NCBI GenBank assembly: GCA_007136585.1
Contig: SLGR01000152.1
Span: 1-7,175, forward strand
Reading direction: 5' to 3'
DNA from: Candidatus Sumerlaeota bacterium
GTDB lineage: Bacteria > CG03 > SLGR01
DNA length: 7,175 nucleotides
Part shown: in pieces, positions 144 through 7,165 of the stretch
How positions within the stretch are numbered: position 1 is the first letter of the stretch
How the letters are laid out: every line of letters begins with the position of its first letter
Translations under genes and position numbers: made by a program
Notes under the pieces: model-generated
Told to the model about the DNA's origin: nothing
Databases searched by the model: none
The model's input: the letters and a program-made list of their open reading frames with translations, nothing else

Positions 144-689
144 TTACGCTTCTGGAACACCCCACCAGCCGGGGTGGGGGAGCTTGCCTTCACGGCACCA
201 TCTACGTTCGTCGGAGCGCCACTCGGCTCGGTCGGCGATGGCATCGTCAACATCTTTAGGGGAAAGCACATCACAGGCGAGGATACCTGCCTTCTGGAGG
301 GGGGCGATATTGACGCGAACGCCGTCGTTGAGATCGGGAGTGTAGGTACTCTCCTGGGCGACAAACTCAGCAATGGTGTGGGGCGGGGTACGTTTGCCAT
401 CCAGGCTGGAAATGGCATCGTATAGGGGCTGCTGGGCTAGCCAGGGTTCCCAGGAGTGGGCCTCGGGGCACTCATACTTTTCAATACCCTCACGGAGTTT
501 CTTCGCTTTTGTTTGAAGGTATTTAATTTCCGCGTTAAGCGACTTAATTTGAGCTTTAAGAAAATCAAGCCGCACGACGATTGCCGATCGTCGGTCTCCG
601 CTGTAGCTAGGGAGCAGTTCTGCAAGCTCTTGTTTGAGTTCAGTCTGTTCTGTTTGAAGCTGCTTACGTTCTTCTTTGAGTAGAGGCGG
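144..689 (-). pseudogene. C-terminal fragment of an Eco57I/PglX-like adenine-specific DNA methyltransferase
   Basis: The frame is open from 689 to the stop at 146-144. Recognisable sequence starts near 680 and gives about 177 residues. The first ~75 form a Lys/Glu/Gln-rich coiled coil (LKEERKQLQTEQTELKQEL, then FLKAQIKSLNAEIKYLQ). The rest resembles the C-terminal end of large class I N6-adenine DNA methyltransferases of the Eco57I-type and BREX PglX groups: LNDGVRVNIAPLQKAGIL, then ADRAEWRSDERRWCREGKLP, then PGWW near the end. The SAM-binding and NPPY catalytic parts of a ~1,000-residue enzyme are absent, so this is a 3' remnant that cannot methylate DNA. An internal GTG at 575 could serve as a start but has no clear ribosome binding site. 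Upstream the frame meets a stop at 692-690, inside hspR-like sequence. The family call is from memory of conserved phrases. PglX versus a stand-alone type II enzyme cannot be decided, and no brxL or pglZ is visible. Confidence 0.6.
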
Positions 690-889
690 TCATTCCCCCG
701 GCTTCTCTTGGGGCAGACTATCTCCTCCGAATCAAGCTTCTTTAAGACCCATACCGGGATATCCAGAAGCCTGCTAACAACGCTTACAGTAAAAACAGGT
801 TCGTTATCCGGGATCTCAAACTCCTCAAAAACCTCGTCCCTGGTGCTGTTTTCAGGATCGTTCTCTTTATTTTTTTTACCTTTATTCAT
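437..889 (-). CDS. hspR: MerR-family HspR-like heat-shock repressor, intact only at its 5' end and followed by an out-of-frame tail
   Basis: Translation from ATG at 889-887 gives a charged N-terminus (MNKGKKNKENDPENSTRDE). A winged-helix MerR domain follows at about residues 30-75: EPVFTVSVVSRLLDIPVWVLKKLD, then EEIVCPKRSRGNDRLYSKK. The xPVxxxSVVSRLL opening and RLYS wing are typical of HspR-like repressors of chaperone genes. After about residue 73 the homology stops. The frame then reads through methyltransferase DNA in the wrong frame (FKQNRLNSNKSLQNC onward) to a stop at 439-437, so the 150-residue product is a chimera. The normal ~40-60 residue C-terminal effector part is missing. No Shine-Dalgarno site precedes the ATG. 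The upstream ATG at 934 lies inside the terminator hairpin and is unlikely. The gene follows hsp20 on the same strand, which fits a heat-shock regulator, but function in this form is doubtful. Confidence 0.65.
   Translation of the reverse strand: MNKGKKNKENDPENSTRDEVFEEFEIPDNEPVFTVSVVSRLLDIPVWVLKKLDSEEIVCPKRSRGNDRLYSKKNVSSFKQNRLNSNKSLQNCSLATAETDDRQSSCGLIFLKLKLSRLTRKLNTFKQKRRNSVRVLKSMSAPRPTPGNPG
665..690. other. Junction between hspR-like and methyltransferase sequences
   Basis: On the minus strand, hspR homology (Asn-Asp-Arg-Leu-Tyr-Ser-Lys-Lys) can be followed to about 671. Methyltransferase coiled-coil homology can be followed back to about 680 in a different frame. The two therefore meet or overlap by a few bases within an A/G-rich stretch (AAAGAAGAACGTA on the minus strand). 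Codon usage also changes across this point. No transposase, target-site duplication or att-like repeat is visible. It may be an illegitimate recombination or deletion end-point, or an assembly join made through a short low-complexity overlap. Confidence 0.6.
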
Positions 890-940: not shown

Positions 941-1417
941 TTATTCACCTACGTCTATTTTCAGCTGTTTGGGTTTTGCGCTCTCCTTCTTGGGAAGCTC
1001 CACTTCAAGAACCCCTTTCTTATAGGAAGCGCGGATCTTCTTCTCATCCACATCCGAAGGAAGCGCGACAGCGCGCTGGAAGGCTCCGTAGTAAAGCTCC
1101 CTGCGAAGCTCGCCTCCCTCTTCGGATTTTTCCTCTCTCTTCTTCTCTCCCTTTATGGTAAGGATACCGTCTTCCAGGATCAGGTCGATCTCATCCTTCT
1201 TCATTCCGGGGATCTCAGACTTAACGACAATTTTATCCTTCTTGTCGTAAATGTCCATTGCGGGACCCCAGCCCTGCTCCGGAAGCGTATCCGCTGACGG
1301 GTCGAACCACTTTGACAGGGACATATTAAAGAGGTTGTTCATCTGACTCCGAAGCCTCTCCATGTCCTTGAAAGGATCCAGACCGCCTTCTCTCTCTCTC
1401 CAGGGAATAAGCGCCAT
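941..1417 (-). CDS. Small heat-shock protein, Hsp20/alpha-crystallin family
   Basis: This is an ATP-independent cytoplasmic holdase that binds unfolding proteins as oligomers and keeps them refoldable by ClpB and DnaK. The product is 158 residues, normal for the family. The N-terminal arm (MALIPWRE, then DPFKDMERLRSQMNNLF) is typical of bacterial class A Hsp20. The alpha-crystallin domain spans about residues 51-143, with PAMDIYDKKDKIVVKSEIPG, the LEDGILTIKGEK strand pair, and the hallmark GVLEVELPK at 135-143. The short tail ends in LKIDV, an I-x-V version of the I-x-I motif that docks into a neighbouring subunit. ATG at 1417 is chosen because AGGAGG lies 8 nt upstream. The in-frame GTG at 1426 overlaps that site and is rejected. 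The gene is divergent from clpB across a shared promoter region and is closed by a strong terminator. Confidence 0.95.
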   Translation of the reverse strand: MALIPWREREGGLDPFKDMERLRSQMNNLFNMSLSKWFDPSADTLPEQGWGPAMDIYDKKDKIVVKSEIPGMKKDEIDLILEDGILTIKGEKKREEKSEEGGELRRELYYGAFQRAVALPSDVDEKKIRASYKKGVLEVELPKKESAKPKQLKIDVGE

Positions 1418-1474: not shown

Positions 1475-1503
1475 TTGACTTTCTCTCTTGTTTCCGTTAT
1501 TAT
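1475..1503 (+). promoter_or_regulatory. Sigma70-type promoter for clpB
   Basis: The -35 box is TTGACT (1475-1480), then a 17-nt spacer, then the -10 box TATTAT (1498-1503). Transcription would start near 1510, giving a leader of about 55 nt. The leader contains the clpB Shine-Dalgarno site GGAGG (1554-1558), 7 nt before the ATG. The -10 overlaps both the hsp20 promoter and the inverted repeat at 1490-1517. Confidence 0.75.
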
Positions 1504-1517
1504 TTTAACACGGAAAC
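1490..1517. promoter_or_regulatory. Inverted repeat, candidate shared operator of hsp20 and clpB
   Basis: A perfect 8-bp inverted repeat, GTTTCCGT (1490-1497) and ACGGAAAC (1510-1517), is separated by 12 AT-rich bases that contain both -10 boxes. A dimer bound here would block both promoters at once. It is neither CIRCE (TTAGCACTC-N9-GAGTGCTAA) nor the actinobacterial HAIR element (CTTGAGT-N7-ACTCAAG). The binding protein is unknown; an HspR-like repressor is one possibility. Confidence 0.6.
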
Positions 1518-1530
1518 CGAAATTTGTCAA
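1502..1530 (-). promoter_or_regulatory. Sigma70-type promoter for hsp20
   Basis: Read on the minus strand, a consensus -35 TTGACA (1530-1525) is followed by a 17-nt spacer and a -10 TAAAAT (1507-1502). The start would be near 1495 and the leader about 78 nt. The promoter runs head-on into the clpB promoter, and their -10 boxes share bases 1502-1503. Confidence 0.75.
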
Positions 1531-1565
1531 GACCGTAAACCGTATTATTTTAAGGAGGAAATAAA

Positions 1566-4139
1566 ATGATTAAATTTGATAAATTCACGACAAAAACACA
1601 GGAGGCCCTGCAGAAGGCCCAGCATACCGCGATTGAGATGGAGCACCAGCAGATAGACGCGGAGCATCTGCTTCTTGCCATGCTGGAGCAGGAGAACTCC
1701 GTAGCCGCTCCCCTTATGGAGAAGCTCGAGGTGCCCGCCGCGCCCCTGAAAAAGGAGCTCCGGGAAGAGCTCGGAAAACGACCCAGGGTATCAGGCGGAA
1801 AAACTTATATGGCCAGGCGCCTGGAGAATATTATAAACAGGGCTTTCACCGAGGCTGGGGCCCTTAAGGACGAGTATATCTCTTCCGAACACATACTTCT
1901 TGCGATGACAACCGAGCGGGAAGGGACCGTAGCGGCGATTTTCAGGAAACACGGTCTCAATAAGGAGAAGCTCCTTAAGGGTATCTCGGAGATACGGGGG
2001 AGCCAGAGGGTAACCGACCCCGACGCGGAAGAGAAATACCGGGCCCTTGAGAAATACGCCCGCGATCTCACAGCCCTGGCCCGCCAGGGGAAACTTGACC
2101 CTGTCATAGGGCGCGATGAGGAGATACGGCGGGTAATTCAGGTACTTTCCAGGAGAACTAAAAACAACCCCGTACTCATAGGCGAACCCGGGGTCGGAAA
2201 GACCGCCATAGCCGAGGGGCTGGCCAGGCGGATAGCCGAAGGCGACGTCCCCGAGTCCCTTAAGAACAAGCGGGTCGTGGCCCTTGATATGGGGAGCCTC
2301 CTGGCGGGGGCAAAGTTCCGGGGCGAGTTTGAGGAGAGACTGAAAGCAGTCCTGAAGGAGATAACCTCATCGGATGGGCAGATAGTCCTATTCATAGACG
2401 AACTTCACACCGTTGTGGGGGCAGGGGCCGCCGAGGGGGCGATAGATGCCTCAAATATGCTCAAACCCGCCCTGGCCAGGGGGGAACTCCGCTGCGTAGG
2501 GGCGACCACCCTTGACGAGTACAGGAAACATATAGAGAAAGACCCGGCCCTGGAGAGACGGTTCCAGCAGGTGATTATAAGGGAACCGGATGTCCAGGAT
2601 ACCATAGCGATACTCAGGGGGCTCAAGGAGCGTTATGAAGTTTTTCACGGAATTAAGATAATGGACTCTGCGTTAATCTCCGCAGCCGTTCTTTCAAACC
2701 GATATATCTCCGACAGGTTCCTTCCGGATAAGGCCATAGACCTCGTAGATGAGGCGGCAAGCAGACTTCATATAGAGATAGAATCCATGCCTACGGAAAT
2801 AGATGAGATACAGAGGAGAATAAGCCAGCTTGAGATTGAGAAGACCGGACTCAGGAAGGAAAAAACCCCCGATTCAAAATCCAGGCTCAAAAAAATAGAG
2901 GAAGAACTTTCCGGGCTTAAGGAGGAGATATCAAGACTGAAAAGCCACTGGCAGAGAGAACGTGATATAATAATGAAGATACGGGAGATAAAGGACAGTA
3001 TTGAGAAAAGCCGGATCGCCCAGGAGAGGGCGGAGCGGGAAGCTGATTACGAAAAAGCCGCCGAACTTAAATACGGAACCATAAACTCCCTTGAGAATGC
3101 ACTCTCAGAAAAGACCCGGGAACTTTCGGAACTTCAGAAGGATATGCGCCTCCTTAAAGAAGAGGTGGACGAAGAGGATATCGCCGGGGTGGTCTCCAAG
3201 TGGACAGGGATTCCTGTCTCAAGGATGATGGAGAGCGAGGTTCAGAAACTTCTCAAAATGGAGGATAAGATCAGGGAGCGGGTTGTCGGCCAGGACGAGG
3301 CGGTAAAGTATGTCTCCGAGGCGGTAAGGCGCTCAAGGGCCGGGCTCCAGGATGAGAGCAGGCCCATAGGCTCCTTTATCTTCCTGGGCCCCACCGGGGT
3401 GGGAAAGACCGAGCTTGCCAGGAGACTGGCCGAGTTTCTCTTTGACGACGAAAAGGCCCTTGTCAGGATAGATATGAGCGAGTATATGGAGAAACACTCC
3501 GTGGCCCGGCTCATAGGGGCCCCTCCGGGGTATGTGGGGTTTGACGAGGGAGGGCAGCTTACCGAGATAGTGCGAAGGAGGCCTTACTCTGTAATCCTCT
3601 TTGACGAGATTGAGAAGGCCCATCCCGACGTCTTTAACGCTCTTCTGCAGCTCCTTGACGACGGAAGACTCACTGACGGACAGGGAAGGACCGTGGATTT
3701 CAGGAATACCATAATAATAATGACCTCCAATACGGGCAGCTCCCATATAGCCCGCCTGGGCCCGGAAGAGGCCGAAAAACTGGTTATGGACGAACTGCGC
3801 AGCACATTCCGCCCGGAGTTTCTTAACCGTATAGACGAGATCATACTTTTCCGCGGGCTGACAAAAGAGAATATAAAGGATATAGTAGATATACAGCTCG
3901 GCGATCTGGAGAGGCACCTTAAAGAGCAGAAGATAAAAATAGAACTCAGCAAACCGGCCCTGGAACTTCTCGCGGAACAGGGTTTTGACCCTGTATACGG
4001 AGCCCGGCCCCTAAAGCGGGCTATTCAGCGGGCCATAGTAAACCCCCTGGCCTCAAAGATCATAGCCGGAGAGTTCAGGGAGGGGGATACTCTGGAGGTC
4101 ACCCGAAAAGAGAGCCGGCTGGAGCTCAGCAGGAAATAA
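1566..4139 (+). CDS. clpB: ATP-dependent protein disaggregase ClpB (Hsp100)
   Basis: ClpB is a hexameric cytoplasmic AAA+ machine that threads aggregated polypeptides through its central pore together with DnaK/DnaJ/GrpE. At 857 residues it is full length for the family. The N-domain with two Clp_N repeats spans about residues 1-150 ([20 protein letters not shown]). The first AAA+ module has Walker A GEPGVGKT (206-213), Walker B IVLFIDE (273-279) and a pore loop AKFRG with Phe where E. coli has Tyr. A long coiled-coil M-domain (about 405-530) marks it as ClpB rather than ClpA or ClpC. The second module has Walker A GPTGVGKT (608-615), pore loop GYVG and Walker B VILFDEIE (676-683). The arginine-containing [15 protein letters not shown] motif lies near the end. 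No ClpP-docking IGF/IGL loop is visible. GGAGG sits 7 nt before the ATG. Most Ile codons are ATA. The gene is divergent from hsp20. Confidence 0.97.
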
Positions 4140-6648: not shown

Positions 6649-6661
6649 AACTTCTGAAGTT
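6649..6661. promoter_or_regulatory. 13-bp palindrome next to the marR -35 box
   Basis: AACTTC-T-GAAGTT is a perfect palindrome around one central base. It ends on the first base of the TTGACA -35 box of the MarR-family gene. Such a position suits an operator. A shorter palindrome, TGAAA-C-TTTCA (6621-6631), overlaps the stop codon of the channel gene. Neither resembles a terminator, because no T-run follows. Confidence 0.4.
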
Positions 6662-6689
6662 TGACAAATATTGTTTTAATAATTAAAAT
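6661..6689 (+). promoter_or_regulatory. Consensus sigma70 promoter of the MarR-family gene
   Basis: TTGACA (6661-6666), a 17-nt spacer and TAAAAT (6684-6689) form a near-perfect promoter. The expected start is near 6696, at most a few bases from the ATG at 6698. The transcript would be leaderless or nearly so, which agrees with the absence of any Shine-Dalgarno site. Confidence 0.75.
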
Positions 6690-6697: not shown

Positions 6698-7165
6698 ATG
6701 AAAACATATAGAACAGCTGAATTCCTGGAAAACGCGTTTGTGGCCGTACCCCAAATGAAAAAGGCCCTTTCCTTCAAAGTCTCCGGGGAAATACTGAAAT
6801 ACGACCTTTCACTGGCCCACGCCCTGATCATAAGGGAGATTTCCCGCCTGGGCTCTCCCAGTATGGGTGAGTTGGTAAGGAACCTTGATATTTCCTGCGC
6901 AATGATGACCCACTTTATAGATCAGCTCCAGGAGAAGCATCTGGTCCGCCGAAAACGTTCCGATTCAGACAGGAGGGTCGTAAACGTTGTACTTACCAAA
7001 AAAGGGTTAAATATGCTGGAAAAGATACGAGGCGCCCATAAGGAAAAACTCGGGAAACTTTTATCGAAATTCACTGAAGCAGAGAGGAAAAATTTTATAG
7101 ATTCATTTGAAACTTTATACAGGCTCATAATGAAGTACGGAGAGACCCCGGATGAAGACACGTAA
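6698..7165 (+). CDS. MarR-family transcriptional regulator
   Basis: The product is 155 residues, the usual MarR size. The winged helix-turn-helix spans about residues 40-105: the recognition part is SMGELVRNLDISCAMMTHFIDQLQEKHLV (55-83), and the wing carries the family signature SDSDRRVVNVVLTKKG (88-103). Flanking N- and C-terminal helices would form the dimer interface. MarR proteins are dimeric, often ligand- or redox-responsive repressors of their own operon and of nearby efflux genes. Cys67 is the only cysteine, lies at the start of the recognition helix, and gives no clear redox motif. The gene has its own promoter and no ribosome binding site. The upstream MFS-channel operon is a possible target; anything downstream lies beyond the window. 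Confidence 0.9.
   Translation: MKTYRTAEFLENAFVAVPQMKKALSFKVSGEILKYDLSLAHALIIREISRLGSPSMGELVRNLDISCAMMTHFIDQLQEKHLVRRKRSDSDRRVVNVVLTKKGLNMLEKIRGAHKEKLGKLLSKFTEAERKNFIDSFETLYRLIMKYGETPDEDT

Follow-up and report, generated by a model that had tools for sequence, protein, structure and literature searches.

A predicted bidirectional hsp20/clpB promoter and a candidate operator array for an HspR-like repressor in a metagenome-assembled genome

The hsp20/clpB locus

Two promoters that point at each other and share bases of their -10 boxes lie between the genes for a small heat-shock protein (hsp20) and a disaggregase (clpB) in a contig of Candidatus Sumerlaeota bacterium, which raises the question of how the two directions of transcription are controlled, by which protein and at which bases. 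The window, by which we mean the whole stretch of 7,175 nucleotides that was analysed, belongs, as contig 177, to a metagenome-assembled genome of 1.88 Mb; its family relatives, G001 and G002, are labelled Elusimicrobia. Features of the window are collected in Table 1. The hsp20 open reading frame can be read from GTG 1426, and translation most likely starts at ATG 1417, which lies behind AGGAGG, rather than at the GTG. A gene for an HspR-like protein of the MerR family follows hsp20 on the same strand, and the terminator-like stem-loop between the two may hold hspR output below that of hsp20.

In G001 and G002, clpB faces the gene order hsp20-hspR-dac. In the window, about 78 residues of hspR are present, joined to the C-terminal end of a PglX-like gene of the BREX type (ORF 144-575, minus strand, PADLOC 1.7e-6), and dac starts at most 22 bases into another contig of the same genome (G000:C69); the break (1-660 against 656-889) reflects either a chimeric assembly or an insertion into hspR.

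Table 1. Features of the window and their positions
Feature	Position	Strand	Details
hspR-like MerR gene	656..889	-	first 78 residues, truncated by contig break; NCBIfam HspR 3.7e-9
Terminator-like stem-loop	915..932	-	separates hsp20 from hspR; T-rich flanks
hsp20, small heat-shock protein	941..1417	-	Pfam HSP20 1.5e-23
clpB promoter (predicted)	TTGACT 1475-1480, TATTAT 1498-1503	+	17-bp spacer; predicted start ~1510
Inverted repeat GTTTCCGT-N12-ACGGAAAC	1490..1517		arms 1490-1497 and 1510-1517; centre 1503.5
Proposed HspR-like operator array	1495..1542		CpG at 1495-96, 1511-12, 1518-19, 1534-35, 1541-42
Bases common to both -10 boxes	1502..1503		same overlap in G002
hsp20 promoter (predicted)	TTGACA 1530-1525, TAAAAT 1507-1502	-	17-bp spacer; predicted start ~1495
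clpB, disaggregase	1566..4139	+	NCBIfam ClpB 1352.9 bits, above cut-off

Opposed promoters with overlapping -10 boxes

The original prediction of two near-consensus promoters, TTGACT-N17-TATTAT towards clpB and TTGACA-N17-TAAAAT towards hsp20, is correct at every coordinate, including the two bases that the -10 boxes share; the hsp20 promoter also has an extended -10, with TGT ahead of TAAAAT. When the 139-bp intergenic region was shuffled with its dinucleotides preserved, an opposed pair with overlapping -10 boxes, each promoter scoring at least 10/12, arose in 2 of 20,000 shuffles, and the observed total of 21/24 was reached in 0 of 20,000. By contrast, 465 of 5,000 shuffles (9%) contained a perfect 8-bp inverted repeat with a loop of at most 20. 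Thus, the promoter pair is a real signal, and the palindrome alone, not being significant, carries none.

The opposed arrangement is present in all three genomes of the family (the window's, G001 and G002). G002 keeps the pair as TTGACA-17-TAGTAT against TTGACA-17-TAAAAT, with the identical 2-bp overlap; G001 has TTGACA-17-TATTAT leftwards and, rightwards, a -10 box that can be read either as TATAAT with a 19-bp spacer, overlapping TATTAT, or as TATATA with a 17-bp spacer. With TATAAT, the two boxes of G001 overlap in the reciprocal 18-bp form, the price being a spacer of 19 bp (spacing counted by hand). Outside the family, no head-to-head hsp20-clpB was found at the loci where the region upstream of clpB is readable (L003, L007, L010 and L013).

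With -10 boxes overlapping on opposite strands (1498-1503 and 1507-1502), the region reads as a bidirectional promoter with predicted starts; opposed promoters that share a -10 are an already described class, and the geometry is not new. In the bidirectional promoters described by the Grainger laboratory, opposite starts lie 7-25 bp apart, mostly at 18 bp, with shared -10 bases; the preferred spacings are 18, 10 and 23, basal transcription proceeds with little competition between the directions, and AcrR represses PacrA/acrR in both of them (PMC12825309, PMC10268837). The window resembles these in its shared -10 bases and in its 15-bp distance between starts, which is inside the 7-25 range, and G001 has their reciprocal 18-bp form. 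Unlike them, the window has both -35 boxes near consensus and heat-shock proteins as both products, and its 15 bp, measured between predicted starts, is not among the preferred 18, 10 and 23.

Two descriptions of the locus in the original prediction need to be adjusted accordingly. The promoters do face each other, but their predicted starts are already crossed (1495 leftwards, 1510 rightwards), so that the transcripts diverge without overlap. Polymerase could indeed occupy one promoter at a time, but output need not suffer from this, given the little basal competition found in the work on this class.

An HspR-like regulator linked to hsp20 and clpB

The hspR-like gene of the window is the single one found in its genome, and full-length relatives of its product occur in G001, G002, G004 and G006. 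The full-length G001 protein has a MerR-type winged helix (Pfam MerR_1 2.8e-9, above cut-off), and the best folds for its model (pLDDT 85) are the GlnR-DNA and TnrA-DNA complexes. NCBIfam HspR is the best family for all seven proteins, yet they score 37-71 bits, and the window fragment 36 bits, against an equivalog cut-off of 105; for this reason they are named HspR-like.

Gene order ties this regulator to the two chaperones. It adjoins hsp20 in 5/5 genomes of the order that have hspR: in all three family genomes it lies 3' of hsp20, and in two further genomes the two genes form one operon. A scan of named genomes found relatives in Omnitrophota and Caenarcanales, mostly adjoining hsp20/clpB; of 74 loci of these two groups, 50 have hsp20 or clpB 3' of hspR, and HspR-like relatives were found in 101 of the 285 Omnitrophota genomes searched. 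The seven genomes of the window's order yielded no HrcA, with control genomes positive. The regulator is accordingly filed as HspR-like and as working like HspR: it has the MerR fold and the link to chaperone genes, with a score below the cut-off and without HAIR.

A candidate palindromic operator in Omnitrophota and Caenarcanales

De novo motif discovery was applied to 74 distinct hspR upstream regions, nearly all from Omnitrophota and none from the phylum of the window itself. The best runs, which differed in seed type, converged on the palindrome RTTMGATWATCKAAY, which has two forms: a CG type (TTTC-GATAATC-GAAA) and a TA type (TGTTA-GATTATC-TAACA). A palindrome with at least 12/15 matches to either form is present in 54 of the 74 regions versus 2.1 in shuffles, the consensus coming from the same data, and in 49 of these 54 it lies 17-19 bp before the TTGAC of the -35, a position that lay outside the model. 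Exact matches number 19 in 22 genomes, about one per genome, and by their coordinates 17 are at hspR promoters (8/9 of the CG type, 9/10 of the TA type). Given its presence in 54 of 74 regions, its fixed position and matches almost only at hspR, the palindrome looks like a dedicated operator, as a predicted site. The extra matches, inside a long ORF in G156 and near glutamate synthase genes in G103, look like chance.

CpG steps at 0, 7, 21 and 42/43 from the first C are found in 15, 15, 14 and 13 of 16 CG-type loci, respectively, against a background of 3.6%. The layout that this predicts begins with a dyad, after which further half-sites come at intervals of about two helical turns and reach across the -35 into the spacer. 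The two operator types track two protein clades with different recognition-helix motifs (WVLK for the CG type, WTLR for the TA type), and on the tree the HspR group of the window falls within the clade that has CG operators. This split agrees with co-evolution of protein and operator, although it needs a single change on the tree and so represents one event only. Omnitrophota also have a second, more canonical HspR-like branch with an ATLRIWE helix, which is without the TTTC/GAAA or TGTTA/TAACA operator (L117, L120-L123).

These operators share features with several known ones. HAIR is CTTGAGT-N7-ACTCAAG; HspR of H. pylori covers 70-80 bp with a central HAIR and flanking dimers, and the S. coelicolor dnaK promoter has three HAIR copies (PMC6102357). 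Like the HspR/HAIR systems of Streptomyces, Helicobacter and Campylobacter, the one considered here combines a putative MerR-family repressor, chaperone genes including clpB and a proposed extended operator for several dimers; the inverted repeat of the Omnitrophota relatives has the N7 centre of HAIR, and the CG-type array is laid out much as in H. pylori. Its halves, however, are TTTC/GAAA or TGTTA/TAACA instead of CTTGAGT/ACTCAAG, and on sequence comparison HAIR appears to be used neither by the window nor by the relatives' promoters. The GlnR/TnrA box, TGTNA-N7-TNACA (PMC6191146), fits the TA-type TGTTA-N7-TAACA, and GlnR and TnrA provide the closest solved structures by both sequence and fold (4r4e, 7tea); they act on nitrogen genes, whereas the HspR-like gene is linked to hsp20/clpB. 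HrcA is likewise a repressor of chaperone genes, and many Omnitrophota loci (L042, L043, L046-L048, L057, L061, L063 and others) have a CIRCE-like GCACTC-N9-GAGTGC that separates hspR from hsp20/clpB, which suggests that HspR and HrcA may both act on the hspR-hsp20/clpB operon there. Unlike those loci, the window is without CIRCE, and HrcA was not found in its order.

Candidate operators in the window

The original prediction that the hsp20/clpB region matches neither HAIR nor CIRCE stands: within 3 mismatches there is no HAIR in the intergenic region (one 3-mismatch match lies inside clpB) and no CIRCE (TTAGCACTC-N9-GAGTGCTAA) in the window. The Omnitrophota CG-type matrix (TTTC-N7-GAAA) does not recognize the window either. 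Its best score there is 4.18 bits, equalled in 1685/3000 shuffles, and its p values against shuffles are 0.56 for the window, 0.29 for G002, 0.35 for G001, 0.26 for G004 and 0.12 for G006. With no score above shuffles, the transfer of this matrix to the window was dropped; the failure counts against HspR control, and the case for such control here is made from genes, phylogeny and geometry.

The geometry is that of the CpG steps. Read on the minus strand, the array of the window has offsets of 0, 7, 23, 30 and 46 across both promoters, or -12, -5, +11, +18 and +34 from the first T of the hsp20 -35, and these positions are identical in G002; the full array is carried by these two genomes. The array shares with the CG type a 7-bp distance between CpG steps and a repeat of about 21-23 bp, a measure that was chosen after the pattern had been seen. 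The five-of-five spacing arose in 0 of 20,000 shuffles of either region, figures that overstate the case since the pattern was noticed first; between the window and G002, 5/5 CpG steps are kept versus 17/44 other non-promoter dinucleotides, again for a post hoc pattern. Fragments of the same spacing occur near the Omnitrophota position in G004 (-33, -11) and G006 (-33, -26). G001, which has a similar HspR, is without the array; a palindrome, AGTAGAAAATTTCTACT, lies in this genome just before the hsp20 -35 (L006 2273-2289), at the place taken by CpG steps in the window and G002.

The 8-bp perfect inverted repeat is present, and centred, as originally described, and was proposed there to be an undescribed operator. 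As a unit, GTTTCCGT-N12-ACGGAAAC is unlikely to be one, because a repeat of this kind arises in 9% of shuffles, and because this one occurs at a single site in the whole genome and is inexact in relatives: GTTTC-N18-GAAAC in the window corresponds to GTTTC-N17-GAAAT in G002, and G001 has neither. Its arms hold the first two CpG steps of the array and its right arm adjoins the third, which explains why a palindrome was noticed there. A search for TTCGGWWWYCGTR in five genomes gave, beyond the known promoter sites, matches inside genes that look like chance.

A related alternative is that HspR binds a single dyad near this palindrome, GTTTC-N17/18-GAAA(C/T), with TTTC/GAAA halves one helical turn wider than N7. 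Its half-sites match those of the CG type, G002 has its version at the same place, and one GTTTC-N18-GAAAC with at most 1 mismatch occurs in the window versus 0.23 expected. We consider it improbable all the same: its spacing differs by 1 bp between the two genomes, nothing alike exists in G001, an 8-bp repeat is as frequent in shuffles as stated, and this reading offers no account of the CpG steps conserved at 1518, 1534 and 1541.

Proposed control of hsp20 and clpB

We favour, with a probability of roughly 0.6, a bidirectional heat-shock promoter repressed in both directions by the HspR-like protein at an array of CpG half-sites. Two near-consensus housekeeping promoters with partly shared -10 boxes would transcribe hsp20 leftwards from about 1495 and clpB rightwards from about 1510. 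The HspR-like MerR protein, encoded 3' of hsp20, would repress both directions by binding CpG-containing half-sites that recur roughly every two helical turns between 1495 and 1542; several dimers side by side would then cover the start sites and -10 boxes of both promoters as well as the hsp20 -35. In known HspR systems, release on heat shock is aided by a chaperone; here, heat shock would release HspR, and hsp20, hspR and clpB would rise together. The proposal builds on what was observed, namely a conserved promoter pair, an HspR-like gene linked to hsp20 and clpB, the operator found de novo in relatives and the CpG spacing shared with G002; from these we infer the binding of HspR to the array of the window, its stoichiometry and cooperativity, and the heat trigger.

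Several elements of the original prediction are retained in this proposal: a single site able to block both promoters is supported, with AcrR at PacrA/acrR as the precedent for one repressor acting both ways, and the HspR-like protein is the likely binder. The two-way switch is retained as joint silencing, but gene order, phylogeny and the relatives point to a repressor that shuts both promoters together rather than one that chooses between them. The wider regulon that the prediction envisaged at dnaK and groEL found no support: inspection by eye of the sequence ahead of dnaK and groES, in five genomes of the order, revealed no array of this kind; here the system differs from HspR.

The same promoter might be controlled by another protein, such as a different MerR, a MarR or some other repressor, with the HspR-like protein acting elsewhere. 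The failure of the matrix from HspR-like operators to match the window is what this explanation has in its favour; the linkage of hspR to hsp20/clpB in 5/5 order genomes having hspR and in most Omnitrophota loci, the finding of no HrcA in seven genomes of the order and the near restriction of the relatives' operator to hspR promoters make it doubtful. Least likely is a constitutive bidirectional promoter without a dedicated operator, its control coming from RNA or a sigma factor and its repeat from chance, for although the palindrome alone is not significant and both promoters are near consensus, non-promoter CpG steps are conserved between the window and G002, near-consensus heat-shock promoters usually require a repressor, and the window has no Rfam element and hence no known RNA thermometer.

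There is also a broader reading for which the odds appear to us evenly balanced: the HspR-like clade of Elusimicrobia, Omnitrophota and Caenarcanales would use its own non-HAIR operator, with TTTC/GAAA or TGTTA/TAACA halves, N7 geometry and extra half-sites about two helical turns apart, and in the window's family the array would have moved onto the bidirectional hsp20/clpB promoter, where a single cooperative assembly would silence transcription either way. Both the class of promoter and the kind of repressor are known; the operator and the array were not found in the literature searched on HspR in Omnitrophota and Elusimicrobia and on HspR motifs, in which subscription journals are thinly covered. 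If true, this would provide a heat-shock control circuit for large uncultured phyla that are difficult to investigate by other means, and its short operator and one small protein would be accessible to in vitro work from synthetic DNA. The split between CG and TA operators, each with its own HspR-like clade, may offer a natural case of a MerR/GlnR-type helix changing specificity while the target operon is kept, and a bidirectional promoter under one stress repressor would be a simple way to pace the holdase Hsp20 with the disaggregase ClpB.

Two further observations concern neighbouring genes. A diadenylate cyclase (DAC) gene lies directly 3' of hspR in two family relatives (L037 4291-4821 and L040 4261-4749), an adjacency that is a possible link between c-di-AMP and heat shock. 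Elsewhere in the window, a TTGACA-17-TAAAAT promoter (6661-6689, plus strand, 11/12) lies just ahead of a gene for a MarR-family regulator (6698-7165).
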